The translations under genes and the position numbers were made by a program. Shown piece after piece: positions 1,720 to 18,876 of a DNA stretch of 64,000 nt (positions within the stretch are counted from its first letter, which is position 1; every line of letters begins with the position of its first letter). The notes under the pieces were generated by a model. It saw nothing but the letters and a program-made list of their open reading frames with translations. It was not told the DNA's origin and made no database searches. Origin of the DNA: an uncultured Rubrobacteraceae bacterium (GTDB lineage Bacteria; Actinomycetota; Rubrobacteria; Rubrobacterales; Rubrobacteraceae); NCBI GenBank assembly GCA_902806085.1, contig CADCVH010000051.1:1-64000 (forward strand), written 5' to 3'.

Positions 1720-2463
1720 ATGGGAAGATTTACTAGAGCGATCCGCGGCTTTTTCGGGAAGTTCCTTTCCGGGGTCGAGCAACGCAACCCCGAGATACTT
1801 CTCGAAAACGCCGTTCAGGACGAGCTCGAGAACTTGAAGAAGCTCCAGGTCGCGGCGGCCCGGACCATGGCCTACGAGAAGATGCTCGCCAACGACGCCG
1901 CGAGCAAGCAGAAGACCCTGACCGTAAAGGAGCGCCAGGCCCGCGAGCTCGCGGGCCGCGGCCAGCGCGCCGCCGCCGTCGAGGTCGTCCAGCAGAAGCA
2001 GGAGGCCCAGACCCAGCTCGCCGAGATCGAGGGCAGGCTAGAGGAGGCGCGCAAGAACTCCCAGGAGATGGAGCGGGCCTTCCGCGACCAGGAGCGGCGC
2101 TACAACGACGTGGCGCGCGAGCGGGCCGCCCTCATGGAAGAGAACCAGCGCGCCCGGGCGCTGCGCACCGCAAACGACGCGAGGGCCCAGATCTCCCTCT
2201 CCGATTCGAGCAGGGACCTCGAGAAGGCCCGCCAGTCCATCCGCCAGGCCTCCTACGAGGCCGAGGCCGTGGGGGAGCTGGGCACCAGCGAGACGGAGCG
2301 CCAGATCGCCGCCGCCGAGGTGGACATAAAGCGCCTCGACGCCGAGCGCGAGCTCGAGATGATGGAGATAGAGATGGGCCTCAAGGAGCCCGAGCCTATA
2401 GAGGCAGCCCCCACAGAAGAGCCGCCCGAAGGGCCGCGGCCGGAGGAAGGGCCGCGTGGGTAG
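1720..2463 (+). CDS. pspA: PspA/IM30 (ESCRT-III-like) envelope stress protein
   Basis: This 247-residue protein is almost entirely coiled coil and opens with the amphipathic helix typical of the family (RFTRAIRGFFGKFLSGVEQ). Family members coat the inner face of the cytoplasmic membrane, oligomerise like ESCRT-III and protect membranes under stress. The length fits PspA (220-260), with a Pro/Glu-rich tail of about 30 residues added. It heads a four-gene run in which each stop overlaps the next start, so the downstream proteins are likely translated together and may act as its partners. An extended -10 promoter lies just upstream. Confidence 0.9.
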   Translation: MGRFTRAIRGFFGKFLSGVEQRNPEILLENAVQDELENLKKLQVAAARTMAYEKMLANDAASKQKTLTVKERQARELAGRGQRAAAVEVVQQKQEAQTQLAEIEGRLEEARKNSQEMERAFRDQERRYNDVARERAALMEENQRARALRTANDARAQISLSDSSRDLEKARQSIRQASYEAEAVGELGTSETERQIAAAEVDIKRLDAERELEMMEIEMGLKEPEPIEAAPTEEPPEGPRPEEGPRG

Positions 2464-3244
2464 CGGCGCCTCCCGGCATCTGGTCAGGCTGGTCCCGTTT
2501 GGGTCGTTCTCGGGGCTCGCCGTGCTAGAAGCGATGGGTCCCGACCCGACCTACTGGCTGGCAGGCCTCTTCGGGGCCGGGGCCGCGTTTACGGGGAAGC
2601 GGCTCCTGGACCGGCGGGGCAACGCGCGCCGGGAGCTGTCGCGACGGGCGCGGGAGAACGTCAAAGAGCTCGAACGCATAGCCAGGGAGGACCGCATCGC
2701 CGCGCCCCAGACCAAACGCCTGGCGGGGTTGCAGGCGGGGGTCATCGAGAGCTGGGAGCTTCTCCCCGAGCAGTACAGGCCGCTCCTGGACGAGGACATC
2801 TTTACCATCGTGGGCGAGGTGGGCGACGCGGCGCGGCTCGCGCGGCGGCGGGCGCTCTTGCGGCGGCACCTGGAGGGCCTGAACCGGCGTGAGATCTCCG
2901 GCCGCATCAAGGGCCTCGAGAAGGACCTGGCCCGGCTGGAAGAAGGCTCGCCCCTGCGGTCGCCGTTCGAGGCCGCGCTTGAGGGGCGGCGGGGCGAGCT
3001 CGCCGGCTACGCGGACATACTCGACGGCATCAGCATGATAAACGCCCAGCTTGAGAGCGCCGAGAGCCTGCTCGGCAACCTGCGCGGCGAGTTGCTCGCG
3101 GTGGACAACAGGCTCTCCTCCGGGCCGCTGGACCCGCGTCTCCAGCAGCTCAAGGAGCGGGTCGCGTACTTCCGGCGCGGCCTGGACGAGGTCACGAGAA
3201 GCGTGGAGTCACTGCCCGCTACGGAGAGGATGGCGGCGAGATGA
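2456..3244 (+). CDS. membrane-anchored coiled-coil protein of the pspA operon
   Basis: This 262-residue protein starts with GTG inside the last codons of pspA, so its translation is probably coupled. A single hydrophobic stretch (WLAGLFGAGAAFTGKRLL, about residues 32-50) is followed by long charged helices. I do not recognise a named family. A PspA partner that tethers or senses at the membrane is an inference from operon position and topology only. Confidence 0.7.
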   Translation: MGSGASRHLVRLVPFGSFSGLAVLEAMGPDPTYWLAGLFGAGAAFTGKRLLDRRGNARRELSRRARENVKELERIAREDRIAAPQTKRLAGLQAGVIESWELLPEQYRPLLDEDIFTIVGEVGDAARLARRRALLRRHLEGLNRREISGRIKGLEKDLARLEEGSPLRSPFEAALEGRRGELAGYADILDGISMINAQLESAESLLGNLRGELLAVDNRLSSGPLDPRLQQLKERVAYFRRGLDEVTRSVESLPATERMAAR

Positions 3245-3912
3245 GCGAAGATCGCACCAACCGGCAGAGCTTTTTCGCCCGGATGTTCAAGGAGCACGAG
3301 CAAGACGACGGGACCTCGATCTACTCCCGCCAGGAGATAGGGGCCGGGGAGGGCGGCGATCGCGAGGGCGTGCCCCACTCGCGGTCCTTCACCGTCGAGC
3401 GTGCCGCCGAGGTCATAAAGAACCTCCCGCCCGAGGTCCCGCGCCCGGCCGCCGTCCGTATCGTGCGCCAGACGCTCGAGGCGGCGGGCATAGACGTAAA
3501 CGAGCTCGATTCCTCGACCAGGGCCAGGGAGTCCCGGTTGGAGTCCGAGATAGACCTCAGCGAGGACCGCATCCGCAAGCTCAAGGATGACACGGAAGAC
3601 GTGATCCGCAACCTCGAAGACCAGATCCGCAAAGCCCGCGAAGCCCGCAACTTCGGTGTCACCGAGCAGGAACGCAAGATAGATGTCGCCGAAAGTGGCC
3701 TGGAAGACATAGACCTGGTGCGCAGCTTCTTCGGTCTCCCGCAGGGCGAACCGGCAGAGGAGCCCGAAAGGCCCCCCGAGGAGACCACCGCGGGCGACGA
3801 GACCCAGGTGATAGAGGGCGTCGGCGAGGACGACACGCAGGTCCTGAGGCAGCCCGGCCCGCTCTCCGACTCCGAGGATTACTGGAACACCCGGGACGAA
3901 CGCGGTCAGTGA
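3241..3912 (+). CDS. hypothetical acidic coiled-coil protein of the pspA operon
   Basis: This is a 223-residue protein whose ATG overlaps the previous stop (ATGA). A short N-terminal segment (FFARMFKE) is followed by a predicted helical domain at about residues 50-85. A heptad-like coiled coil at 95-150 comes next, and then a Pro/Glu/Asp-rich disordered tail. No named family is recognised. Strict coupling to pspA on one side and a J-domain gene on the other suggests a role in the same envelope-stress complex. Confidence 0.7.
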   Translation: MSEDRTNRQSFFARMFKEHEQDDGTSIYSRQEIGAGEGGDREGVPHSRSFTVERAAEVIKNLPPEVPRPAAVRIVRQTLEAAGIDVNELDSSTRARESRLESEIDLSEDRIRKLKDDTEDVIRNLEDQIRKAREARNFGVTEQERKIDVAESGLEDIDLVRSFFGLPQGEPAEEPERPPEETTAGDETQVIEGVGEDDTQVLRQPGPLSDSEDYWNTRDERGQ

Positions 3913-4427
3913 GCATCCCGCGTCGCATCGGCCGCCTCGCCAGCGGCCTGCTCTCTAACATCCAGGAGGACGAGCGTGTCCGCGAGCGCCTCCGCACCGG
4001 CCGCGAACGCGGCGAGACCCTGAGGGGTGCCTTCGAGGCCGCCCTCAGGGGGGCCCAGGAGGAGCTGCGCCGCTCCGAAGAACGCCGCCGCGCCGAGGGG
4101 GGCGGGCCTACGGGATCCACCTTCGCCGGCACCCGAAACACCCGGCAAAGCTCTGGCCGCGCCTCTGGCCGCACTTCGGGTCGGACCTCCTCGACCTTCG
4201 CCCCGCTCAAGTACCCGCCGAACGTGCTCTCGGCCTACGACAGGCTCGGCCTCGTCCCGGGCGTGCCGATGGACGAGGTCGACCGCAAGCGAAGGGAGCT
4301 CGTCAAGCGCTTCCACCCGGACAGGTTCCCCGACCCGGACAAGCGCGCCCGCGCCGAGAAGGTGACCGCGGAGATAAACGCCGCCCACGACACCATAGAA
4401 CGCCACGCCTCGCGCAAGTCGCGGTAG
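3909..4427 (+). CDS. J-domain protein with C-terminal J domain
   Basis: This 172-residue protein starts with GTG overlapping the previous stop (GTGA). Residues about 105-168 are a J domain with the HPD motif (KRFHPDRFPDPDKR) that stimulates the ATPase of DnaK-type Hsp70. Unlike DnaJ, the J domain is at the C-terminus, behind a charged helical region and a Ser/Arg/Thr-rich linker. Its place as the last gene of the pspA operon suggests it recruits Hsp70 to PspA assemblies, perhaps for disassembly. That role is inferred from context. Confidence 0.8.
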   Translation: MSIPRRIGRLASGLLSNIQEDERVRERLRTGRERGETLRGAFEAALRGAQEELRRSEERRRAEGGGPTGSTFAGTRNTRQSSGRASGRTSGRTSSTFAPLKYPPNVLSAYDRLGLVPGVPMDEVDRKRRELVKRFHPDRFPDPDKRARAEKVTAEINAAHDTIERHASRKSR

Positions 4428-7517: not shown

Positions 7518-9806
7518 GTGGCATCGGAAAGCTCAAACCAGGCGACGGAGTCGCAGCAAGACGAGCAGAACCAGCAAGAGGACCAGCAGACGGACGGCCA
7601 GGGCCAGCGGGCATACGACTACGACGAAATAAAGGACAACGCTCCGGTTAGGAAAAACGACCCGCGCACCTCCGTCCAGAAGACCGAAGAGTACCGGTTC
7701 GCGAACAACATACCCGGCGATCAGACGATCCCCGAAAAGGCTTACGCGGACTACACGCTGGAGTACGACGACGAAGACGCGGCGATGAACGGCAAGATTC
7801 CGGACGTGCTGCTCGACGTGCCGGTCGTCAAGGTGGACGAGATCAACTTCGAGCTCAACGACCTGCGGGCCAAGGTCAACCTCTTCGCGAAGGTGCTCGA
7901 CCTGGTGGAGCTCTCGGTCGGGGTCGATCTGTACCTCGGCCGCGTAAAACTCGTCATAACGGGCGTGGAGGCGCAGGCGCTCCTCAAGGTTCGCCTGGAC
8001 AACGTGACCGCCATCATAGACCGGGTCCTCACGACCATAGACCGCAACCCCCAGATCATAGAGAAGCTCGTCGACAGCGTGGGCTCCGCGGTCGAGGACG
8101 TCGGCAGTGGCGCCGGCTCGGCCCTGGAGGACGTGGGCGAGGGCGCCGGTCAACTGGTTGGCGAAGGGGTCAACTCGGCGGTCGAGGATATCGGCTCTGG
8201 CGCCGGCGAACTTGTGGGTGATGGTCTCAACTCCGCGGTGGAGGATATCGGCTCTGGTGCTGGCGACCTGGTTGGTGAGGGAGCCAACCAGGCGGTCGCC
8301 GACATCGGTTCGGGCGCCGGCTCCGCCGTCGAGGACGTGGGCGAAGGGACCGGTCGGCTCGTAGGCGAAGGAGCCAACCAGGCCGTCGCGGATATCGGTT
8401 CTGGAACCGGCTCCGCCGTCGAAGACGTCGGTTCCGGGGCTGGCTCTGCGGTCGAAGACGTGGGCGAAGGCGCCCAGTCGGCGGTCGAGGACGTAGGTTC
8501 TGGGGCCGGCTCCGCTGTGGAGGACGTTGGCTCTGGTGCCGGCTCCGCCGTCGAGGATGTTGGCGAAGGCGCTGGCGAAGCCGTCGAGAGCACCGGAGGA
8601 GCCGTCGAAGACGTCGGCTCCGGGGCCGGCGAAGCCGTCGAGAGTACGGGCGAGGCCGTCGAAAATGTCGGCGAAGGCGCTCAGTCGGCAGTGGAAGATG
8701 TGGGTGAGGGTGCCGGCGAGGCGACCCAGCAAGTCGGCGAGGGCGCGGGACAGGCCGCGGGCGAGGTAGGCCAGGGCGCGGGGCAAGCGGCCGGTGAGGT
8801 AGGCCAGGGGGCAGGTCAAGCCGCAGGCGAGGTCGGTGAAGGAGCCGGACAGGCCGCCCAGGAAGTCGGCGAGGGCGCGGGCGAGGCTGCGGAAAGCGCC
8901 GGCCAGGCCGCCGAGCAAGTCGGGGAGGGTGCGGGGCAGGCCGCGGAAAGCGCCGGCCAGGCTACGGAGCAAGTCGGCGAGGGCGCCGGCCAGGCCGCGC
9001 AAGAGGCCGGGCAGGGGGCCGGGCAAGCCGCCGAGGGCGCAGCCGAGGGCGCAGGTGAGGCGGCCCAGGGCGTCGGGGGCACGGCGGGGCAGGTGGCCGA
9101 GGGTGCGGGCGACGCCGCCGGCCAAGCCACGGATCAGGCAGGGCAGGTCGCCGACCAGGCCCAGGATGCCGCCGGAGGGATCGCCGACCAGACGCAGGAT
9201 GCAGCGGGTCAGGCGACGGAGCAGGCGGGGCAAGTCGCCGACCAGGCCGGTGGCGTGTCGGATCAGGCAACTGGGGAGGTCGGTCAGGCCGCGCAGGGAG
9301 AGGCGCAGGACGTCGAGGGGCAGGCGTCCGGCCAAGACGGACAGGCCGCGCAAGGGGTACAGGACATCGCGGCCGGCCAAACGCAGGACGCCACGGGGCA
9401 GGCCCAGGAGACCGCCGGAAACGCGGCCCAGGAGGTACAGGACGGGGCCGGACAGGCCGCCGATCAAACCGGACAGGCCGCCCGACCCGGGGGGGATGCC
9501 GGGGGTCAGAACGTCGATGAAGACCAGGGCCAGCACGGCGCCGGGGTCGACGAGAACGCCAACGGAGGGCGTCAGAGCGTGCAGCGCGCGGTGGATCAGA
9601 CCGGAGACATCATCGAGATCACCCTGAACGAAAACGGCGAGATAGTGAGTGAGGAGCTGGCCGGCAACGTCGGCAGCCTGCCCGTGGAGGAGGAGTACGT
9701 GGACGATGATGGCCGAATCGTGAGTCGGGTGAGGGACGAGGCGGGGAATGCCATAGAGCGGGTGTTCGACGACGAGGGGAACATGGTCGGCATAAGGGTC
9801 GTTTGA
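7518..9806 (+). CDS. 762-residue acidic LEA-like repeat protein (putative scaffold)
   Basis: Residues 1-95 are Gln/Asp-rich and disordered. Residues 96-181 form a compact predicted alpha/beta domain (DVLLDVPVVKVDEINFEL, then SVGVDLYLGRVKLVITGVEA) shared with the protein at 17885. About 185-690 is an almost Lys/Arg-free 11-residue repeat region, first SAVEDVGSGAG, then GAGQAAGEVGQ, then ATDQAGQVADQ. Residues 693-762 form a second domain (LNENGEIVSEE, EEEYVDDDGRIVS, DEAGNAIERV) shared with the protein at 16058. The 11-residue period recalls LEA and apolipoprotein-type amphipathic helices. I infer a structural scaffold of a granule or condensate; no named family is recognised. Confidence 0.8.
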   Translation: MASESSNQATESQQDEQNQQEDQQTDGQGQRAYDYDEIKDNAPVRKNDPRTSVQKTEEYRFANNIPGDQTIPEKAYADYTLEYDDEDAAMNGKIPDVLLDVPVVKVDEINFELNDLRAKVNLFAKVLDLVELSVGVDLYLGRVKLVITGVEAQALLKVRLDNVTAIIDRVLTTIDRNPQIIEKLVDSVGSAVEDVGSGAGSALEDVGEGAGQLVGEGVNSAVEDIGSGAGELVGDGLNSAVEDIGSGAGDLVGEGANQAVADIGSGAGSAVEDVGEGTGRLVGEGANQAVADIGSGTGSAVEDVGSGAGSAVEDVGEGAQSAVEDVGSGAGSAVEDVGSGAGSAVEDVGEGAGEAVESTGGAVEDVGSGAGEAVESTGEAVENVGEGAQSAVEDVGEGAGEATQQVGEGAGQAAGEVGQGAGQAAGEVGQGAGQAAGEVGEGAGQAAQEVGEGAGEAAESAGQAAEQVGEGAGQAAESAGQATEQVGEGAGQAAQEAGQGAGQAAEGAAEGAGEAAQGVGGTAGQVAEGAGDAAGQATDQAGQVADQAQDAAGGIADQTQDAAGQATEQAGQVADQAGGVSDQATGEVGQAAQGEAQDVEGQASGQDGQAAQGVQDIAAGQTQDATGQAQETAGNAAQEVQDGAGQAADQTGQAARPGGDAGGQNVDEDQGQHGAGVDENANGGRQSVQRAVDQTGDIIEITLNENGEIVSEELAGNVGSLPVEEEYVDDDGRIVSRVRDEAGNAIERVFDDEGNMVGIRVV
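8070..9490 (+). repeat. 33-bp-periodic coding repeat (11-codon units)
   Basis: The coding sequence repeats with a 33-bp period. Units drift gradually from SAVEDVGSGAG-type to GAGQAAEQVGE-type to ATDQAGQVADQ-type, and adjacent units are the most alike. That is the pattern expected from repeated unequal exchange or slippage. Copy number is likely variable between strains. Confidence 0.85.
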
Positions 9807-9850
9807 GCGGGAAAGCAAGGTTGAGAAGACCGAGCGGAGAGGAGAATTAG

Positions 9851-10951
9851 GTGACAGACAAACAGACGGAGGCGTTGGAGAGGCTGAACCAGGGCATCCA
9901 GGAGTCCAGGCAGGAGGTCCAGAAACGGACGATGAACCTGGCCCAGGGCTACTTCGATGACTCGGCAGAGGCGCTCAAGCAGCAGATAAAAGACAACCGG
10001 TCCACGCTCGAGGGCCTGCCGGACCAGATCCCCGGCGGACGAGAAGAAGCCTTCCAGACGATGTTCCAGGAGTTGATGGACAACTACTCGTCCATGGAGG
10101 AGGCCATCGACGAGGCCCAGCAAAACGTCGCAAGCCTGGACACGGATCGGATCAGGCGCCAGGGAGAGATCGAGGCCACGGACGCGGCCCGCCGCGAGGC
10201 AAAAGAGCGGGGTGTGGACCTCACGCAGGTCGAGGGAACGGGTACCGACGGCCGGATCATCGTCAGCGACGTGGTAGAAGCGGCCGATGCGATGGAGAGC
10301 GGCGAAGGACCCGACGTTTCGGAGAACGGGGCCACCGATCAGGCCCAGCAGGCACAAGAGCAGGCCGGGCAGGCCGTGGAGGGCGCGCAAGACGCCGCGG
10401 GGGGCGCCACCGATCAGGCCCAGCAGGTAGCGGGCCAGGCGACCGACCAGGCCGGACAGGTGGCGGGCCAGGTCCAGGACGCCGCCGGCCAGGCCACGGA
10501 CCAGGCCGGGCAGGTAGCCGACCAGGCCCAAGACGCGGCGGGAGGGGCCACCGATCAGGCTGGTCAGGCCGTGCAGGGTGTCCAGGACACCGTCGGTGGG
10601 CTCACCGGCGACGGCCAAGAGGACGGCGGCGGCCCCCTGGGAGGGGTGACCGATCAGGTCGGCCAGGTCGCCGGGCAGGCCCAGCAGGTGGCGGGGCAGG
10701 CCACCGACCAGGCTGGGCAGGTCACCGGCCAGGCGCAGGATGCCGCGGGAGGCGCCACGCAGCAAGCCCAGGAGTCCGTGGGGTACGCGGCGGAGCAGGC
10801 GCAGAACGCTACCGGGGAGGACGAGGCCGGGGAGCCGAAGGCCACGAACGCCGCCAGGCGCAGAGCGAAAGAGATGGGGGTTGACCTCTCCACGATCGAA
10901 GGCACCGGCTCCGGTGGGCTCATAACTATCCAGGACGTGGTGGGCTCCTGA
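9851..10951 (+). CDS. phasin-like protein with two PSBD modules
   Basis: This is a 366-residue protein behind a strong ribosome site (GGAGAGGAG). Residues 1-105 are amphipathic helices reminiscent of phasins. Residues 109-146 are an E3-binding / peripheral-subunit-binding-like module (DAARREAKERGVDLTQVEGT, then GRIIVSDVVEA). An Ala/Gln-rich 11-residue repeat region follows, and a second module occupies 331-366 (AARRRAKEMGVDLSTIEGTG). No lipoyl or acyltransferase domain is present, so it is not a dehydrogenase E2. It probably works with the neighbouring repeat proteins, using the modules as protein-docking sites. Confidence 0.75.
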   Translation: MTDKQTEALERLNQGIQESRQEVQKRTMNLAQGYFDDSAEALKQQIKDNRSTLEGLPDQIPGGREEAFQTMFQELMDNYSSMEEAIDEAQQNVASLDTDRIRRQGEIEATDAARREAKERGVDLTQVEGTGTDGRIIVSDVVEAADAMESGEGPDVSENGATDQAQQAQEQAGQAVEGAQDAAGGATDQAQQVAGQATDQAGQVAGQVQDAAGQATDQAGQVADQAQDAAGGATDQAGQAVQGVQDTVGGLTGDGQEDGGGPLGGVTDQVGQVAGQAQQVAGQATDQAGQVTGQAQDAAGGATQQAQESVGYAAEQAQNATGEDEAGEPKATNAARRRAKEMGVDLSTIEGTGSGGLITIQDVVGS

Positions 10952-10955
10952 CGCG

Positions 10956-11240
10956 ATGAAGAAGGAGGGAACAGGCGAGCCGCAGAACCCGGACATAGTG
11001 CTCGATGCCGACGTGAGGATGCACGAGTTGTACTTCGATAGGGCGCCGAATCCTCGGGTGCGCTTTTGGGGAAACACCAAGCGCAACTCTGTATGGGAGA
11101 GCAGGCGCGAGAACTTACCGGGGGAGGTCCAGGAGGGCGTCGTTTATCCCAACGGCGGCGTTCGGTTGAGGATCGCCAGCGAGGCAGTGGATAGCGACGA
11201 GGTAGTAGATAGCGATCCCGGTTCAAAGACTAGTTCGTAA
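10956..11240 (+). CDS. hypothetical 94-residue protein
   Basis: A small ORF five bases after the previous stop, in a tight run of same-strand genes. The middle (DADVRMHELYFDRAPNPRVR, then FWGNTKRNSVWESRR) is basic and aromatic, unlike the low-complexity neighbours, and the tail is Asp/Ser-rich. The ribosome site is weak, so translation may be coupled to the upstream gene. I do not recognise a family. Confidence 0.55.
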   Translation: MKKEGTGEPQNPDIVLDADVRMHELYFDRAPNPRVRFWGNTKRNSVWESRRENLPGEVQEGVVYPNGGVRLRIASEAVDSDEVVDSDPGSKTSS

Positions 11241-11320
11241 AGAGAAAGGGTAAAGAGGGGCCGGAAGCAATCAAAGCGAACAACCGTGAGACAAAGACTC
11301 GTGAGCAAAGAGGAGAAAAA

Positions 11321-12793
11321 ATGAGCGAACAAGCGCAGCAGCAACAGACTCAGGATCAGTATCTGCAACAGGCCCAGGACTTCTTCGCGCGATCGATGGG
11401 TAGGATAAAGGGCCGGATGCAGAGCGACTCCGCCCAGCTCGAAAGCTTCATGCAGCAGCTTCCCGAGGATTCGCAGGCCCAGATCCAGGAGATGACCGAC
11501 TCCTACGCCCAGTTCGGGGACAGCATAGATCAGGCGTCCCAGGATGCTGGGGTGCAGGACGTGATGGAGGAAGAGGCCCAGGAGGCGAGGCAGAACGCGG
11601 ACGAAGCCACGGGTCAGGGCCAGGAACCCGTCCAACAAGCCACGGATCAGGTGCAAGATGTGGCCGGCGGGGGCGCCGAGCAGGTGCAAGATGCGGTCGG
11701 CGAGGGCGCCGAGCAGGCGCAAGATGCGGTCGGCGAGGGCGCCGAGCAGGCGCAAGATGCGGCCGGTGAGGTTGCTGATCAGGCCAGCCAGGTGGCGGAG
11801 AACCTGCCCGAGGGCTTCGAGGCGATAGACGAGCCCACCACCGACGAGGAAGGCAACACCGTCGTGCGCGCCGAGGATTCCGAGGGGAGCCTCACGGACT
11901 TCACCTTCGACCCGGAGGGTGAGATGGTGGACGAGGTCCCGGTGGAGGAGGGCGAGGCCGAAGGCGAGGCCGAAGACGAGGCCAGCCAGATGGCGGAGAA
12001 CCTGCCCGAGGGCTTCGAGGCGGTGGGCGATCCGACCACCGACGAGCAGGGCAACACCGTCCTGCAGGGCCAGGACGAGCAGGGCAACACCGTGACCGTC
12101 CAGCGCGCCGCGGACCCCGAGGGGAACGTCGTTGACTCCACGTACGATCAGCAGGGCAACCTCATGGACGAGACCCCGGTGGAGAATCCCGCCCCTCCCG
12201 GGTCCACGTCCTCGGTCACGACCCGCCCCTCCGACAACGAGGACAGCTCCGAGAACTCCTCCTGGGAAGACAGCGATACGACGACCGTCGATCAGCAAAA
12301 GGGCAGCGAAGGTCTTCTTGGCGGCGGCCTTCTCAGCTTGGATCTCCTCCCGCCAATGGAGAAGCAAACGACCACCGTGGAGTCCCAGGATTCCGAGGAT
12401 GTCGACGAGACGTCATCGGAGTCCTCGTCACAGGGAGGAGAAGAGCAGCAAGGAGAAGAGGCTGAGCAGGGAGAGGAAGCTGAGCAAGGCGGAGGCGGTG
12501 GGGGACCCGTCGATCAGGTGACGGACACCGTCGGCGGCGCGGCCGAAGGCGTGCCCGTCGTCGGGGACGCCGTAGGCGGCGAAGGCGGGGGACCCGTCGA
12601 TCAGGTGCAGGACACCGTCGGCGGCGTGACCGAGGGCCTGCCCGTTGTTGGAGGAGACGGCGAAGGCGGCGGGGGACCCGTCGATCAGGTGCAGGACACC
12701 GTCGGCGGCCTGACCGGCGGCCTGACCGGCGGTGGCGGCGGAGACGACGAGGAAGGTGGCGGCGGAGGCGGCCTCGCCGGGGGCCTCCTGTAG
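11321..12793 (+). CDS. phasin-like acidic repeat protein
   Basis: This 490-residue protein has a strong ribosome site (AGAGGAG before the ATG). Residues 1-95 share the phasin-like helical domain of the protein at 12882 (LPEDSQAQIQEMTDSY, then SIDQASQDAGVQDVMEE). Three near-perfect 11-residue repeats follow, then two copies of a ~60-residue beta-rich unit (NLPEGFEA, PTTDEEGNTV). The tail has Ser/Glu/Gln-rich and Gly-rich segments, with GGPVDQVQDTVGG repeated three times. The composition is strongly acidic. It has no C-terminal PSBD, unlike its neighbours. It is likely a structural component of the same assembly. Confidence 0.75.
   Translation: MSEQAQQQQTQDQYLQQAQDFFARSMGRIKGRMQSDSAQLESFMQQLPEDSQAQIQEMTDSYAQFGDSIDQASQDAGVQDVMEEEAQEARQNADEATGQGQEPVQQATDQVQDVAGGGAEQVQDAVGEGAEQAQDAVGEGAEQAQDAAGEVADQASQVAENLPEGFEAIDEPTTDEEGNTVVRAEDSEGSLTDFTFDPEGEMVDEVPVEEGEAEGEAEDEASQMAENLPEGFEAVGDPTTDEQGNTVLQGQDEQGNTVTVQRAADPEGNVVDSTYDQQGNLMDETPVENPAPPGSTSSVTTRPSDNEDSSENSSWEDSDTTTVDQQKGSEGLLGGGLLSLDLLPPMEKQTTTVESQDSEDVDETSSESSSQGGEEQQGEEAEQGEEAEQGGGGGGPVDQVTDTVGGAAEGVPVVGDAVGGEGGGPVDQVQDTVGGVTEGLPVVGGDGEGGGGPVDQVQDTVGGLTGGLTGGGGGDDEEGGGGGGLAGGLL
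11672..11770 (+). repeat. three tandem 33-bp repeats
   Basis: Three adjacent 33-bp units (11672-11704, 11705-11737, 11738-11770) differ at only a few bases and each encode GAEQVQDAVGE or a close variant. They lie in the gene at 11321. Confidence 0.9.
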
Positions 12794-12881
12794 ACCTCCT
12801 GCAATCGAGAGCGGCGGGGTTGATTCCGCACGGCCCCGCCGCTCACCGGAAACGATAGTCAACGAGCAAAAAGGAGACCAA

Positions 12882-13865
12882 GTGACTGACCAAGCACCGA
12901 ACCTTCAGCAGCAGAACCTTCAGGCGGCCACGGAGAACGCCCAGAACTTCTACGGGCAGTCGATAGGCAGCCTCAAGAGCCAGGCCCAGAACTACCGCGA
13001 GCAGCTGGAGCAGTTTTCCCAGCAGCTTCCCGAGGATTCGCAGGCCCAGGTCCAGGAGATGATCGACTCCTACATAGAGCTCGAGAGCTCCATGGACCAG
13101 GCGGCCCAGGATGCCGGGGTACAGGACCAGATGGAGCAGGCCGCCCAGCAGACCCAGCAGCAGATCCAGGACGCCGCCGGGGGTGCCGCCCAGCAGGCAC
13201 AAGACGCCGCCGGCCAGGCCACCGATCAGGCCCAGCAGGCCGCGGGCCAGGCGACCGACCAGGCCGGCCAGGTCGCGGGCCAGGCCCAGGACGCCGCCGG
13301 GGGTGCCGCCCAGCAGGCCCAGGACACCGCCGGCCAGGCCACCGATCAGGCCCAGCAGGTCGCGGGCCAGGCGACCGATCAGGCCGGCCAGGTCGCGGGC
13401 CAGGCCCAGGAGGCCGTAGGCGGGCTCACCGGCGGCGGCCAGGAAGGCGGCGGAGGCCCTCTGGGTGGCGTCACCGATCAGGTAGGCCAGGTTGCGGGCC
13501 AGGCCCAGGAGGTAGCGGGCCAGGCTACGGATCAAGCCGGCCAGGTCGCGGGCCAGGCCCAGGACGCCGCCGGGGGTGCCGCCCAGCAGGCCCAGGACAC
13601 CGCCGGCCAGGCAGCGCAGCAGGGGCAGCAGGCCGCGGGTCAGGCAGCGCAGCAGGGGCAGCAGGCCGCGGGTCAGGCGGCCCAGCAGGCTGGAGGTCAG
13701 CAGCAGGGAGGCGAGCAGCAGGGAGGCGAGCAGCAGCCGAACGCCACGCAGGCAGCCCAGCAGAAGGCCCAGCAGATGGGTGTGGACCTTTCCCAGGTGC
13801 AGGGCTCCGGGGCTGACGGGCGCATCACCGTCAGGGACGTGCAGAGCGCCGCGGACCAGCAGTAG
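12882..13865 (+). CDS. phasin-like Gln-rich repeat protein with C-terminal PSBD
   Basis: From the GTG with an AAGGAG site this is a 327-residue protein. Residues 1-95 are the phasin-like helical domain (QLPEDSQAQVQEMIDSYIEL, then SSMDQAAQDAGVQDQMEQ), clearly paralogous to that at 11321. The centre is an ATDQAGQVAGQAQDAAG-type repeat. Residues 289-327 are an E3-binding-like module (AAQQKAQQMGVDLSQVQGSG, then GRITVRDVQSA). The low charge and high Ala/Gln/Gly content suggest a disordered or amphipathic helical linker between two folded ends. A surface or client protein of a granule is the inferred role. Confidence 0.75.
   Translation: MTDQAPNLQQQNLQAATENAQNFYGQSIGSLKSQAQNYREQLEQFSQQLPEDSQAQVQEMIDSYIELESSMDQAAQDAGVQDQMEQAAQQTQQQIQDAAGGAAQQAQDAAGQATDQAQQAAGQATDQAGQVAGQAQDAAGGAAQQAQDTAGQATDQAQQVAGQATDQAGQVAGQAQEAVGGLTGGGQEGGGGPLGGVTDQVGQVAGQAQEVAGQATDQAGQVAGQAQDAAGGAAQQAQDTAGQAAQQGQQAAGQAAQQGQQAAGQAAQQAGGQQQGGEQQGGEQQPNATQAAQQKAQQMGVDLSQVQGSGADGRITVRDVQSAADQQ
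13608..13673 (+). repeat. two perfect 33-bp tandem repeats
   Basis: Two identical 33-bp units (13608-13640 and 13641-13673), each encoding QAAQQGQQAAG, are followed by a degenerate third copy and by three short GAGCAGCAGGGAGGC-like units up to about 13735. They lie in the gene at 12882. Confidence 0.9.
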
Positions 13866-13906
13866 CCGCGGGTCCTTGGGGAAGCCGTCGAAGGAAAGGA
13901 GCAGCT

Positions 13907-14167
13907 ATGGACGACAAGGCCAAAGGCAAGGCCAAAGAAGCCTACGGCGCCTTGACCAGCGACGAGGCCAAGAAGGAGGAGGGCCGGGCGCAGCAGAGGA
14001 AGGCTGACGCCCAGGAGCAGGCGGCACAGCAAGCAAAGACCAGCCAGGCGAAAGAAGAGGCCAGGCGGGCGGAGAGGCAACGGGACCGGCAGAAGGTCAA
14101 GGACAAGGGCCTGCTAGGCGGCGTTACGGACTCGTTGTCCGGGCGTGATCGAGGCCCAGGGGCCTGA
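13907..14167 (+). CDS. CsbD-like small stress protein
   Basis: This is an 86-residue protein with a good ribosome site (AAAGGAG). Its start (KAKGKAKEAYGALTSDEAKK) matches the CsbD family pattern of abundant small general-stress proteins found in many bacteria. The rest is Lys/Arg/Gln-rich and highly charged, opposite in charge to the acidic repeat proteins upstream. It closes the first block of the cluster and is followed by a strong hairpin. Confidence 0.65.
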   Translation: MDDKAKGKAKEAYGALTSDEAKKEEGRAQQRKADAQEQAAQQAKTSQAKEEARRAERQRDRQKVKDKGLLGGVTDSLSGRDRGPGA

Positions 14168-14202
14168 CACGGCGGGATCACCCCGCAAAAAGAGCCGGGT
14201 TA

Positions 14203-14238
14203 GGGACGCATTTCCGATGTCTGCCGGAAATGCGTCCC
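14203..14238. terminator. perfect 14-bp hairpin, terminator-like
   Basis: GGGACGCATTTCCG (14203-14216) and its exact complement (14225-14238) are separated by an 8-base loop. A T-rich stretch (TTCGTTTT) begins only about 12 bases after the stem, so this is not a textbook intrinsic terminator. It lies between the CsbD-like gene and the Arg-rich Ig-like gene and probably ends the 7.5-14.2 kb transcript. Confidence 0.6.
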
Positions 14239-14297
14239 GCGTCCTGCTCTTCGTTTTCTAACGGCACTGACATTACCGCGGAGGAGTTGATAAGCGT

Positions 14298-14663
14298 ATG
14301 GGTAGACGGAGGAGACGGAGGGGGCCTGGCAGCGGGAGGCACGCGAGCCGCGGTGGTGGTTCGAGGCGCAGAATTCTCATAACCTCGGTTAGTCCTTCCG
14401 GAGACGTTAGTAGCGCCAGCCCCACCATCCGGGCCGTCGTCGAGGACAGGGACGGCACCCCCCTGTCCAGGAACGACATAGACTTGTACCTCGACGGGGA
14501 GGAGAAGCGGTTCACCTACAGGCGGGCTACCGGTGACCTGAAATGCTCCACCGGGAGGCTCTCCTCCGGCACCCACACGGTCGAAATAGATGCCTACGTC
14601 GAAACCGACGACGGGGGGGGCAAGGCGGGCAGGAAGAAATGGACCTTCAACGTAAAGAAGTAA
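14298..14663 (+). CDS. Arg-rich Ig-like domain protein, copy 1
   Basis: This 121-residue protein has an extremely basic start (MGRRRRRRGPGSGRH), then one Ig/cadherin-like beta domain with the usual landmarks: SPTIRAVVEDRDG, NDIDLYLDGEEKRF, LSSGTHTVEI and a closing KKWTFNVKK. There is no signal peptide, so it is probably cytoplasmic. It is paralogous to the next gene. The basic tail could bind nucleic acid or the acidic repeat proteins of the cluster; that is inference. Confidence 0.7.
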   Translation: MGRRRRRRGPGSGRHASRGGGSRRRILITSVSPSGDVSSASPTIRAVVEDRDGTPLSRNDIDLYLDGEEKRFTYRRATGDLKCSTGRLSSGTHTVEIDAYVETDDGGGKAGRKKWTFNVKK

Positions 14664-14806
14664 GGGGCAGATAGGGCAGGCGGTTTCAAGTACGAACCAG
14701 GCTGGGCATCTGATCCGCATTGGGGTCCTCTATTCGTGCTGCGAGAATACGAGCGGGTCTTGGAGGTGTCCCCGCATCGTCGAGGACCGTATGAGGAAGG
14801 GATCGC

Positions 14807-15229
14807 GTGGCCAAGAGACGGAGGAACAGACGAAATTCGCGTCGTAGGTCCTCGGTCAGGGTTGTCAGGGTCACGAGGACGGAAGGCTCTAGCGAGAGCC
14901 AGACTACAAGCTATCGCACGGGAGGCCTCTCCATTACCGGCGTGGGCCCGACTGGTAAAATTGCAAGCTCTTATCCCACCATCCGGGCGAAGGTGAGAGA
15001 CGAGGGGGCCAACCTCTCCAAGAGGGACATCAGGTTGTACCTTGACGGGTCCGAGAAGATCAGGTTCCATTACGATCGGGTCAGCGGCCGCCTGAGCTAC
15101 AACGTCCGCGGCGCGCTGTCTCCCGGCACCCACCGGGTGGAGGTAGAAGCCGGAGCCGAATTCGGGGACAATCGGGGACAATCCAACAGTACGGCCAGAA
15201 AGGGATGGACCTTCACGGTGGCGCGTTGA
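14807..15229 (+). CDS. Arg-rich Ig-like domain protein, copy 2
   Basis: This 140-residue paralog of the preceding gene starts with GTG (AGGAAGG site upstream). It begins AKRRRNRRNSRRRSSVRVVR, followed by the same Ig-like domain (SYPTIRAKVRDEGANLSK, DIRLYLDGSEKIRFHYD, LSPGTHRVEVEA, KGWTFTVAR). The presence of two diverged copies with conserved basic tails suggests that both domain and tail matter. It lies directly upstream of the ParA gene. Confidence 0.7.
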   Translation: MAKRRRNRRNSRRRSSVRVVRVTRTEGSSESQTTSYRTGGLSITGVGPTGKIASSYPTIRAKVRDEGANLSKRDIRLYLDGSEKIRFHYDRVSGRLSYNVRGALSPGTHRVEVEAGAEFGDNRGQSNSTARKGWTFTVAR

Positions 15230-15308
15230 GAGCCCAGGTTACGAGGCAGCACGATCACGGAAAGCCACGTGCGGCCCGGGACAAATCGGACGTGCATGCG
15301 AGGCGTGG

Positions 15309-16049
15309 TTGAGAAAAGTGGCTTTCACCAACGCGAAGGGCGGGGTCGCGAAGACCACGACCTGCGTGAACCTGGGCGCGGCGCTGGCGCTGGCGGGCCA
15401 CCGGACCCTCCTCGTGGACTGCGACACGCAGGGGCAGGTGACCAAGAGCCTGGGCGTCCAGGCGGGAGAGGGGCTGGCCGAGCTCGTTCAGGGCGACGCG
15501 GGCCTCGAGGACGTGCAGATAGAGGCCCGCGAGAACCTGTTCGTGATCTCCGGCGGGGGGTCGCTCTCGGGGGTCAAGCGCATGATCTCGCGGAGGGACA
15601 TGCGCTCCGAGTTGGTGCTGAGCGAGGCCCTCGAAGGCCTCAGGGGCTACGACTTCGTGCTGCTGGACGCGGCGCCTTCGTGGGACGTCCTCAACGTCAA
15701 CAGCCTGTTCTACGTCGACGAGATCCTGATCCCGGTCTCCATGGAGGTGCTGGCGCTGCAGGGGGTGGGCGACTTCCTGGGCCGCGTGAAAGAGGTGCAA
15801 CGCTACCGGGATGGCCTGCTCATACGGGGCATAATCCCCACCTTCTACGACGGCCGGGTCAAGAAAAGCGCGGAGATCCTGGAACAGCTCGAGCGGCACT
15901 TCCCGGGCACCGTCTGGCCGGTCGTGCGCTACAACTCGAAGCTCTCCGAAGCGCCGGGCTTCGGCCAACACATCTTCGAGTACGCGAAAAGGAGCTACGG
16001 GGCCGCCGATTACGACCGCCTGGCGAAGCGGCTCGCCAAAGGGGGATAG
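15309..16049 (+). CDS. ParA/MinD-family ATPase
   Basis: This 246-residue protein has a deviant Walker A (NAKGGVAKTTT, K10 to T18) with the signature lysine, Walker A' (LLVDCDTQG, 34-42) and Walker B (FVLLDAAPS, 116-124), plus the typical C-terminal tail (KLSEAPGFGQHIFEYAKRS). ParA ATPases dimerise with ATP, coat the nucleoid and move plasmids, chromosomes or protein organelles using a partner that triggers hydrolysis. No replication gene or parS array is visible. The setting inside a scaffold-protein cluster favours organelle or granule positioning. The TTG start is chosen; a GTG three codons later is possible. Confidence 0.9.
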   Translation: MRKVAFTNAKGGVAKTTTCVNLGAALALAGHRTLLVDCDTQGQVTKSLGVQAGEGLAELVQGDAGLEDVQIEARENLFVISGGGSLSGVKRMISRRDMRSELVLSEALEGLRGYDFVLLDAAPSWDVLNVNSLFYVDEILIPVSMEVLALQGVGDFLGRVKEVQRYRDGLLIRGIIPTFYDGRVKKSAEILEQLERHFPGTVWPVVRYNSKLSEAPGFGQHIFEYAKRSYGAADYDRLAKRLAKGG

Positions 16050-16057
16050 CCGAAAGC

Positions 16058-16672
16058 ATGGGCAAGAGAAAAAGCGTGCCGAAAGACCTCATGGGAACCA
16101 TCTTGAGCGAGAGCTTCGAGGCCGCCGACGAGGAACAAACACCTTCGGAGCCTCCTGGGTCCTCCGGCGCCGACGTCTCCTGGGACGAGAGGCCGGAGCG
16201 GGTGGGCATCACCTTCAACCTCTCCAAAAGGCTCGTCGTCGAGCTGGAGAGGCTCCGGGAGGAGCTTCGACCGGAGGGGGACGTGGACGTTCGTCCTTCC
16301 AAGTCCGAGATCGCCGAGGCGGCGCTCCGGATCGCCGTGGAGGACGTAAGAGAGAGGGGCGAAGAGAGCGGGTTGTCCCGGAGGCTGGACGGGCAGCGCG
16401 AGGCCCGGACCTCGGACGCCGCCGGCGGGACGACCCGCCGCGGCGTGGACGAATCCGGCTGGATCTTGGAGACCACCCACGACGAGAACGGGGACATCGT
16501 CGACGAGAACGTGGTTGGCACCGTCGCCGACCTTCCGGTGACAGACGAGTACATGGACGAACAGGGGCGGCTGGTGAGCGTGGCCAAAGACGAGCTGGGG
16601 AACGTCTTCGAGCAGGTCATGGACGACGGGTTCAACACGCTCGAGACGAGGCTCCTTCCAGCCCAGGATTGA
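16058..16672 (+). CDS. ribbon-helix-helix partner of ParA with scaffold-type C-terminal domain
   Basis: This 204-residue protein starts eight bases after the ParA stop. Residues 48-98 resemble a ribbon-helix-helix domain: a short strand (GITFNLSK), helix (VVELERLREEL) and second helix (SKSEIAEAALRIAVEDVRE). Residues 133-200 (DENGDIVDENV, DEYMDEQGRLVSVAKDELGN) match the C-terminus of the 762-residue repeat protein at 7518. The N-terminus is the ParA-partner type of short basic segment (MGKRKSVPKD). This is the expected layout of a ParG/McdB-like adaptor: ParA contact, possible DNA or dimer domain, cargo-type domain. Confidence 0.7.
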   Translation: MGKRKSVPKDLMGTILSESFEAADEEQTPSEPPGSSGADVSWDERPERVGITFNLSKRLVVELERLREELRPEGDVDVRPSKSEIAEAALRIAVEDVRERGEESGLSRRLDGQREARTSDAAGGTTRRGVDESGWILETTHDENGDIVDENVVGTVADLPVTDEYMDEQGRLVSVAKDELGNVFEQVMDDGFNTLETRLLPAQD

Positions 16673-16708
16673 ACGATGGTTCCTAGAGCAAAGGCCGGAG
16701 GAGGTCTC

Positions 16709-17014
16709 GTGCAAGCCGACGGGGGTAGCAGGGAAGCGATGATGCGGGAGCAAAAGAAGCAGCTCGTCAAGGCGGCCCGGATGCTGGCGATGTGCCGGAA
16801 AGCCGGTGTTCCCGAGCCCCTGGACGTTACGGGGCTGGCGGTCGCGGCCTTCGAAGACATGCAGCTCAGGGAGGCCATGCTCTTCGTCCGCACCAACGAG
16901 CAGAACATAAAAGACCTCGCCTGGGCGCTCGGCAACTCCAACTCCGCCGAGGAGTTCGAGCAGAGGGTCAAGGAGATAAAGACCCTGCCCAAACGCGACG
17001 AACCCCGCCGATAG
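16709..17014 (+). CDS. hypothetical helical protein of the ParA cluster
   Basis: From the GTG with a GGAGGAGG site this is a 101-residue protein; an upstream ATG at 16676 has no ribosome site. The sequence is helical and mixed-charge (REQKKQLVKAARMLAMCRKA, then FEDMQLREAMLFVRTNEQNI) with one buried-looking helix. No family is recognised. It immediately follows the ParA partner and is likely co-expressed. Confidence 0.6.
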   Translation: MQADGGSREAMMREQKKQLVKAARMLAMCRKAGVPEPLDVTGLAVAAFEDMQLREAMLFVRTNEQNIKDLAWALGNSNSAEEFEQRVKEIKTLPKRDEPRR

Positions 17015-17157
17015 GCCCCGGAAGTCCCCGCAACCGGCCTCCAAGCCTCGTCTGGACGGGGGACCCCGGTCTCCCCAAGGTGTTGTGGTCCCGGAAAAAA
17101 CGTGTTTACGTCGCGGCTATCCCCCGTCTAGAATGCCCCAAAAGCGCGGAGGTACGG

Positions 17158-17412
17158 GTGTCCGAGGGATTTCAGCGAGAGAGGTATCTACAAGATCGCC
17201 GCGCGTGGAGGCTCCTCCTGGCCCGGCTGCACCCGGACGCCGGCGGCGACCACGAGCTGTTCCTGTTCGCCTGCGCCCTGATGGACAGCGTGTGCGGGAA
17301 GCGCCGCTCCGGACCCGGACTGGACCACGCCTTCTCCCGGTGGCGGGGCGGCATGGACTCGTGGGCGTCGCGCAACCGGGAGGGGCTGCGGAGGCCAGGC
17401 CCCGGACGCTAG
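17158..17412 (+). CDS. short J-domain-like protein
   Basis: This is an 84-residue ORF from a GTG. LLLARLHPDAGGDHELF carries the HPD motif of J domains with the typical preceding helix, and a helix follows (LFACALMDSV). The size is barely that of a J domain and the N-terminus is short. It could be a minimal Hsp70 co-chaperone for the cluster, or a fragment. The start is uncertain because the frame is open upstream. Confidence 0.5.
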   Translation: MSEGFQRERYLQDRRAWRLLLARLHPDAGGDHELFLFACALMDSVCGKRRSGPGLDHAFSRWRGGMDSWASRNREGLRRPGPGR

Positions 17413-17456
17413 GCCCAAACGGCGTTCTCGGGGCGACGCCCGCCGGGAGTAGGCGC

Positions 17457-17681
17457 CTACTGGGGGCCTTGCTGCTGGGATTGTTGCATGGTCTGGATCA
17501 CCTGCCACACCAGATCCCCGGCCTCTCGCTGCATCTTGATCGCCTCGGTCTGCCCCGGGTTCTGAAGCTCCAGCATGTTCTGCACCTTGCGGATGTCCGT
17601 CAGCGCCCGAGCCATGAGCTGCAGCGGACTAGGCTGCTGTTGCTGCTGGCCGCCCTGCTGTTGCTGTGTACCCTCTGCCAC
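17457..17681 (-). CDS. Gln-rich small protein on the opposite strand
   Basis: Reading from a GTG preceded by GAGAGGAG at good spacing, this is a 74-residue protein. A poly-Gln/Gly start (EGTQQQQGGQQQQQ) is followed by an amphipathic helical segment (LQLMARALTDIRKVQNMLEL, later GDLVWQVIQTMQQSQQQ). Its composition resembles the cluster's other Gln-rich proteins although it is transcribed against them. An earlier ATG would add 14 residues but lacks a ribosome site. Confidence 0.55.
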   Translation of the reverse strand: MAEGTQQQQGGQQQQQPSPLQLMARALTDIRKVQNMLELQNPGQTEAIKMQREAGDLVWQVIQTMQQSQQQGPQ

Positions 17682-17884
17682 GGGGTCTCCTCTCTCTCTG
17701 ATCTCCGGAAGGGGTTTGCCCACCCGCGTCTTTTCCGGTCCGGTACGTTTCCTACCCGTGTCGGACCCAGGCTAGACCCCGCGGGCGCCGGGATCGGCCC
17801 GGGGGGCGGCGTTTATGCCCCGGATAGCGGGGGCACTAAGACAAAAAGACGACGGCGAGGTGCGTTTTCCTATGGAGAACCGGC

Positions 17885-18490
17885 GTGACGCAGAGACAAC
17901 CTGACGACCGCCTGGAGGAGGAAGAAGTACGGGCGGAGGCCACGGGCGAGGACGACGCGGACGTCGTCCTCGACATCCCCATGCTCAACGTCGAAGAGCT
18001 CGACCTTGAGGTCGAGGAGCTCAGGGCGCACATCTCGGCCCGGGCGGAGTTGGTGGGCTTCCTGAACATCAACGTGGGCGTCGACGCTTACGTCGACAAA
18101 GTGAAGCTGAACATAAAGGGCGTCGAGGCCCAGGTCCAGTTGAAGGTGAAGCTGGAGAGGATCCTCGGCAGCATAGACCGCGCCCTGCAGGCCATAGACA
18201 ACAACCCGCAACTCCTGGACCCGAACTTCAGGAGGTCGCGGGGCGCTGGTGAGGAAGACGCCGGCGAGCAAGGGGGACGGCGCGAGATCGCCCCCGCCCC
18301 CGAGGAAGGCCCCGAAGACGTCGTCGAAGAGCCGGCCGAAGACCCGGAACGGGACGGCGCGAGACCGGCGGCGACCCACGCCGCCAGGAGAAAGGCGGAA
18401 GAACTCGGGCTCGACCTCTCGATCGTGGAGGGCACCGGGGCCGAAGGCCGCGTCCTCGTGCGGGACGTGCTGAAGGCCGCGGACGACTAG
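17885..18490 (+). CDS. scaffold-domain protein with C-terminal PSBD
   Basis: This is a 201-residue protein from a GTG. Residues 26-111 (DVVLDIPMLNVEELDLEVEE, then NVGVDAYVDKVKLNIKGVEA, then DRALQAIDNN) are the same domain as residues 96-181 of the large protein at 7518. A Glu/Pro-rich linker leads to an E3-binding-like module at about 163-199 (AARRKAEELGLDLSIVEGTG, then GRVLVRDVLKAA). It therefore links two modules found separately elsewhere in the cluster, a strong sign that all these genes belong to one system. It may bridge scaffold and PSBD clients. Confidence 0.8.
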   Translation: MTQRQPDDRLEEEEVRAEATGEDDADVVLDIPMLNVEELDLEVEELRAHISARAELVGFLNINVGVDAYVDKVKLNIKGVEAQVQLKVKLERILGSIDRALQAIDNNPQLLDPNFRRSRGAGEEDAGEQGGRREIAPAPEEGPEDVVEEPAEDPERDGARPAATHAARRKAEELGLDLSIVEGTGAEGRVLVRDVLKAADD

Positions 18491-18552
18491 TGCCCCACGG
18501 GTTCGGTCCCGGGGTTACAATAAACGGGGTGGCGACAGGAGGACAGAAGACG

Positions 18553-18876
18553 GTGGCGAAGTACTTCAAGCAGAGCTCGGCGGAGATCATCTCGGACCTC
18601 CTCTCCGACGCGAAGGTCAAGCGCGTTCGCGAGTACGTCGGCGGCGAGGACTTCAAGTCCGACCGGGAGCGGGTCCGCCAGGAGGCGGCGCGCCGCCTCA
18701 AGAACGTCCGCGACCGTTACCGGAAGAAGGGCCGCACCCCCGAGACGGCCGCGAAGGAACGGGAACTCACCCTCCGCCTCGCCGAGGTAGAGGCCGAGTC
18801 GGCCGAACTGCGCGTCCGGTTCTCGGAGCTTCTGGAGGAGGAAGAGAAGCTCCGCGCCGCCCTCGACGAGCTCTAG
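18553..18876 (+). CDS. hypothetical coiled-coil protein
   Basis: From the GTG behind GGAGG this is a 107-residue protein; earlier in-frame starts exist. It is helical and highly charged (SSAEIISDLLSDAKVKRVRE, then KERELTLRLAEVEAESAELR), ending in a likely coiled coil. No family is recognised. It is the last gene before the change to glutamate synthase, so it may mark the end of the cluster or be independent. Confidence 0.55.
   Translation: MAKYFKQSSAEIISDLLSDAKVKRVREYVGGEDFKSDRERVRQEAARRLKNVRDRYRKKGRTPETAAKERELTLRLAEVEAESAELRVRFSELLEEEEKLRAALDEL

Follow-up and report, generated by a model that had tools for sequence, protein, structure and literature searches.

What kind of system is encoded by the group of genes at 7518-18490 of contig CADCVH010000051.1 from an uncultured Rubrobacteraceae bacterium (GenBank assembly GCA_902806085.1)? 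The window, i.e. the whole stretch of DNA that was analysed, comprises positions 1 to 64,000 of this contig, and an earlier note had proposed that about 14 neighbouring genes at 7518-18876 with recombined modules make up one system, a candidate ParA-positioned granule or condensate akin to polyhydroxyalkanoate (PHA) granules with their phasins and to ParA-positioned carboxysomes. We report that the genes g01-g14 form a conserved cassette, and that its conservation, an exact empty site, common modules and a ParA confined to cassette-bearing genomes support the view that they are indeed one system. Our data suggest that the cassette might provide an accessory coat or scaffold for PHA granules, with ParA-driven positioning where ParA is present, a reading to which we give slightly less than an even chance.

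The comparisons were based on 40 genomes of the family and 41 genomes from other families of the same phylum. An 88-amino-acid (aa) domain carried by both g01 and g14 was detected in 20 of the 40 family genomes and in none of the 41 others. The open reading frames (ORFs) of the window are conserved as orthologues in relatives, where the recurrent order is xer, g01, g02, g03, g04/g05, the group g06, two Ig-like genes, parA and g10, and then g11, g12, g13 (opposite strand), g14, g15 and gltB; g01 orthologues were found in every cassette locus reaching that end. In the window all cassette genes are on the plus strand except g13, and the gaps are mostly short. Five cassette-negative genomes inspected closely (G027, G009, G021, G018 and G010) have an exact empty site with xer, a short gene and gltB adjacent, and the short gene was recognised as g15 in four of them; G024, also cassette-negative, is rearranged downstream of xer. 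Because g15 (18490-18876, plus strand, coiled-coil-like) adjoins xer and gltB in cassette-negative genomes, we consider it a flank and place the cassette end at 18490, so that the extent first proposed stands for g01-g14 but not for g15. The precise empty site therefore marks the cassette as a unit that is acquired or lost whole, with xer and g15 on its flanks. A scan for promoters and terminators gave no signal above chance. Next to xer, in cassette-positive as well as cassette-negative genomes, a conserved upstream block (1720-4427) comprises a gene for a homologue of PspA/IM30 (1720-2463), one for a J-domain protein scoring slightly under the Pfam cut-off (3909-4427) and two conserved helical genes.

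Judged by their sequences, modules are shuffled between the cassette proteins. The 762-aa g01 (7518-9806) combines the 88-aa domain (residues ~94-185) with long 11-mer repeats and a C-terminal beta module (~683-762), while g14 (17885-18490; 201 aa) has the same domain (42% identity, E 6e-21) and a C-terminal E3_binding domain. An AlphaFold2 (AF2) model of the g01 domain, with a mean predicted local distance difference test (pLDDT) score of 69.5, shows a long beta hairpin and helices, and had no match in the PDB at E<=0.001. The 11-residue repeats are acidic, as first described, poor in Lys and Arg and strongly periodic: the self-identity of g01 at lag 11 is 0.53, whereas shuffled sequences give 0.16, and at 98 degrees the helical moment of the repeats beats 300 of 300 shuffles. 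A C-terminal module of ~80 aa is common to g01 and g10 (1.3e-15) and, in relatives, is also carried by proteins like g04 and g14; it is predicted to be a run of beta strands in the AF2 model of g10, whose best PDB match reached just 3.2e-3 (a beta-rich B12-binding lipoprotein, low TM-score). Phasin-like N-terminal domains are found in g02 (9851-10951; 366 aa), together with two E3_binding domains and A/Q/G repeats, in g04 (11321-12793; 490 aa), together with 11-mer repeats and an Asp/Glu/Gly-rich tail, and in g05 (12882-13865; ~327 aa from a probable start at 12882), together with 11-mer A/Q repeats and a C-terminal E3_binding domain. Pfam E3_binding is above its cut-off in g02 (two copies, 6.4e-21), g05 and g14, which bears out the E3-binding-like domains seen earlier.

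Against Pfam Phasin_2, g02 scored 22.8 bits (1e-4), under the curated cut-off of 24.9. A profile of the phasins from the PHA locus matched g02 at 2.9e-9, as its sole match in 8208 ORFs and with no match among ~1400 shuffled or reversed controls. Full-length orthologues of g02 were picked up by the same profile at 2e-11 to 3e-8, the L042 copy more weakly, as were some proteins of the g04/g05 type (1e-6 to 2e-3); nothing else was significant, and a profile-profile comparison (hhalign) between g02 and the PHA-locus phasins gave 97.5%. By these comparisons the phasin-like part of g02 is a true paralogue of the phasins from the PHA-synthase locus. Matches to the short phaC-locus phasins were found in each of the 40 family genomes and in no genome of the other 41.

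The source genome encodes class I and class III PHA synthases, both on contig C79 and away from the cassette; the absence of a PHA synthase stated in the earlier note thus holds locally, but not for the genome. The class III PhaC matches TIGR01836 with 387 bits, above the curated cut-off, and the adjoining PhaE/PhaR-like subunit (PhaR, 2.9e-15) has an E3-binding domain at its C-terminal end, a feature also seen in G027, G030, G012, G016 and G028. With a profile derived from PHA-locus E3-binding domains only, the cassette copies scored 53-57 bits and the E2 enzymes of the genome 22-32. Moreover, a 298-aa protein encoded between class I and class III phaC in G038 has a phasin domain, A/Q 11-mers and an E3-binding domain, i.e. 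the layout of g05, and a phaC-locus phasin in G030 carries 11-mer repeats; a literature search for a phasin with an "E3 binding domain" found none. Because of the phasin homology and the shared E3-binding domains a role at PHA granules leads among the readings, and with paralogues at the phaC locus and this domain on a synthase subunit the phasin lead is stronger than first thought. Members of Rubrobacter can accumulate PHA up to ~50% of dry mass (PMC8146576). In the same genome, on contig C10, a bL20 protein (named from its sequence; L209:5710-6495) has two C-terminal E3_binding-like domains of the subtype that the cassette proteins share with the PhaE-like subunit.

ParA (15309-16049; 246 aa; Pfam AAA_31, 1.7e-37) is without an N-terminal helix-turn-helix (HTH) and has a deviant Walker A motif, KGGVAKTT, that is intact in 12 of 12 orthologues; identity among relatives is 83-95%, and among solved structures Soj-type segregation proteins are nearest. 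An orthologue is present in 12 of the 20 cassette-positive and in none of the 20 cassette-negative family genomes (Fisher, 4.5e-5). The co-occurrence of the modules with ParA is accordingly partial: 8 of the 20 cassette-bearing genomes, some of them incomplete assemblies, have no ParA, which makes it an optional and not a defining element. In G005, G015 and G026, all cassette-bearing, parA is located away from the other cassette genes. That parA is confined to cassette-bearing genomes even when unlinked suggests that the two are tied by function and not by linkage alone. The putative ParA partner g10 (16058-16672; 204 aa) has a conserved N-terminal KRRxxPEDLMGTIL-type motif, a two-helix middle resembling a ribbon-helix-helix (RHH) and, at its C-terminal end, the module of g01. 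As to the RHH adaptor proposed earlier, the AF2 model of g10 shows two helices in the middle with moderate confidence, but no RHH family was matched in Pfam; from pattern and helices an RHH fold is plausible. With the module it has in common with g01, g10 may be a dedicated partner that ties ParA to a cargo.

We propose that the phasin-type helical domains and weakly amphipathic 11-mer repeats of g02, g04 and g05 would lie on the granule surface, and that the E3-binding domains of g02, g05 and g14 may dock to partners, possibly including the like-domained PHA synthase subunit, while g01 would act as a long 11-mer scaffold. In ~60% of carriers ParA and g10 would be added; g10 would contact ParA through the basic motif at its N-terminus and attach to g01 through the common C-terminal module, and ParA on the nucleoid would space or segregate the granules. 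The more specific idea of a ParA system dedicated to the positioning of PHA granules, with ParA-g10 attaching to a g01 scaffold that coats the granule together with the phasin-E3-binding proteins and docks to the E3-binding-tagged synthase subunit, is put forward tentatively.

The g01 domain was part of the early description as a new domain near both ends of the cluster; this is correct for g01 and g14, but the domain is not unique to the family. It is common in Streptomyces, Nonomuraea, Saccharopolyspora and Nocardiopsis, is also present in Myxococcus, Brevundimonas and Deinococcus, and in most actinobacteria it is followed by VGxGAGxAVxD-type 11-mers. In Brevundimonas and at many actinobacterial loci the g01-type gene has a g03-family gene as its direct neighbour; the g03 profile detected this neighbour at 2e-26 to 1e-9 in the actinobacterial loci and at 3e-6 and 3e-3 in Brevundimonas. 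In the Brevundimonas loci L160 and L165 the g03-like gene is directly upstream of the g01 relative; the products of both genes, as well as the g01 relatives of L102 and L103 on Deinococcus plasmids, have apparent signal peptides (read by eye). In Streptomyces-type loci (L156, L163, L178 and others) the g01-type gene is often beside genes for SRPBCC (polyketide-cyclase) and YVLGRTKK-type proteins, which we take to resemble gvpZ and gvpY of actinobacterial gas-vesicle clusters; GvpA was found nearby only in L145. A gas-vesicle origin, prompted by these neighbours, was rejected, as the family has no GvpA and hhalign of the g01 domain with GvpA gave a probability of 0.3%.

Several observations weigh against a role at PHA granules. 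The cassette contains no PHA enzyme, and cassette-negative relatives with phaC exist, i.e. it is dispensable for having PHA synthases; G027, with its empty site, is presumably R. xylanophilus, a proven PHA producer. The E3-binding subtype of the cassette is also found at the end of bL20 and of small proteins. Among 25 genomes outside Rubrobacter that have the g01 domain, just four gave a PhaC_N match (two Brevundimonas and, weakly, two Myxococcus), and the g01- and g03-like proteins of Brevundimonas seem to be exported. Since g01 and g03 are spread over genomes mostly lacking PhaC_N, the pair is apparently of greater age than its link to PHA and not tied to PHA, and in the Rubrobacteraceae it seems to have been joined with phasins and ParA. 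Class I PhaC is present in 15 of 20 genomes with and 15 of 20 without the cassette, and PhaC co-occurrence is for this reason uninformative as a test. A protein scaffold or condensate without PHA, e.g. in stress or desiccation, with domains borrowed from phasins and positioned by ParA where present, is a serious if somewhat doubtful contender: it would fit the wide occurrence of the unit of g01 domain, 11-mers and g03 without PHA synthase, the independence from class I PhaC and an E3-binding subtype that is not PHA-specific, and the CsbD-like g06 and J-domain-like genes point to stress or chaperoning. However, the phasin domain of g02 belongs specifically to the PHA-locus family of phasins, and a complete phasin-repeat-E3-binding protein is encoded at a phaC locus. 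The modules themselves are linked in the cassette, but the g01 domain, E3-binding domain and phasins also occur alone elsewhere, so that the unlinked scatter named at the outset as speaking against the proposal is partly seen.

Even if the cassette coats PHA granules, ParA-g10 could serve DNA-bound regulation or another cargo, with positioning no part of the cassette function; cassettes lacking ParA and the unlinked parA genes would agree with this, but the absence of ParA from all cassette-negative family genomes and the g01 module on g10 make it improbable. A cell-surface or exported matrix would account for the Ig-like genes, a sortase upstream and the apparent signal peptides in Brevundimonas and Deinococcus; with no evident signal peptide on g01, g02, g04, g05 and g14 of the window, and a sortase that is outside the cassette and present in cassette-negative genomes too, we regard it as very unlikely. 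Unlikelier still is that the cassette is left over from a plasmid or integrative element that was partitioned by ParA-g10. A Xer-type integrase adjoins the cassette, and ParA with a possible RHH partner recalls plasmid partition, but xer and the flanks are fixed in cassette-negative genomes, the site is identical across genera, no replication or transfer gene was seen in the cassette and the g01 domain has no phage match. Phage or plasmid origin as such was rejected, there being no phage match and four matches in the plasmid collection that were isolated genes. A microcompartment or carboxysome was rejected as well: the bacterial microcompartment (BMC) shell family PF00936 is absent from the genome, in agreement with the lack of a shell stated at the outset.

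Among the other cassette genes, g03 (10956-11240; 94 aa) belongs to the family of g01 neighbours described above. g06 (13907-14167; 86 aa) is CsbD-like below the curated cut-off (Pfam CsbD 2e-8, NCBIfam MBP-1 1.3e-8), and g07 (14298-14663) has an Arg-rich N-terminus and an Ig-like domain (weak Pfam Big_7), with g08 (14807-15229) as its paralogue; g07-type Ig-like domains also occur near phaC loci of G000 and G006 (L186:1197-1667 and L249:1-1875; 3e-18 and 5e-22). g11 (16676-17014; 112 aa) is conserved, with family not assigned. The short g12 (17050-17412, start approximate) has a J-domain-like HPD motif and no match in Pfam; the related cassette L050 has a full J-domain gene (DnaJ, 1.3e-26). 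g13 (17457-17723; 88 aa, Gln-rich) is the sole minus-strand gene, an orientation conserved in relatives. In or beside the related cassettes L041, L042, L045, L048 and L050, a protein of ~184 aa recurs that starts with MSIREQERR, has Met-Ser-Glu-type runs and matches no Pfam family above cut-off.

Compared with known systems, the cassette resembles the phasins and nucleoid tethers PhaP, PhaF, PhaM and PhaH in its phasin-type helical domain, homologous to the phaC-locus phasins of the family, in having a second domain for docking and in its many paralogues. It differs by having 11-mer repeats and E3-binding domains where the latter have histone-like or helix-hairpin-helix (HhH) DNA-binding tails, by its separation from phaC and by an optional ParA, which those proteins lack. 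With McdAB and other ParA/MinD positioning systems it shares an HTH-less ParA beside a partner in which a short, basic N-terminal motif is conserved and which has a module in common with the presumed cargo scaffold. Unlike McdAB it has no carboxysome or BMC shell, and ParA does not always accompany the presumed cargo; among solved structures its ParA is nearest the Soj type, and any positioning is putative. The class III synthase subunit PhaE/PhaR of Rubrobacteraceae ends in the E3-binding subtype of the cassette, but it partners a synthase, whereas the cassette proteins have no enzyme. Finally, perilipin and apolipoprotein 11-mer coats and late embryogenesis abundant (LEA) proteins have the same 11-residue amphipathic-helix periodicity (g01 against a Pfam apolipoprotein family, 1e-11, far below cut-off); convergent composition is likely and homology is not claimed.

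We know of no ParA-positioned storage granule so far, and if the reading with a dedicated ParA system is true, this would be the first. Independently of that, the 88-aa domain and its small partner g03 are conserved across several phyla without an assigned function. The known positioners of polyhydroxybutyrate (PHB) granules, PhaM, PhaF and PhaH, are nucleoid tethers with no homology to ParA, and a 2025 review considered it an open possibility that PHB granules are spaced in a carboxysome-like or ParA-like way (PMC13052382). The cassette of the Rubrobacteraceae offers a concrete candidate for such ParA-driven granule spacing, with natural comparisons between genomes with and without it.

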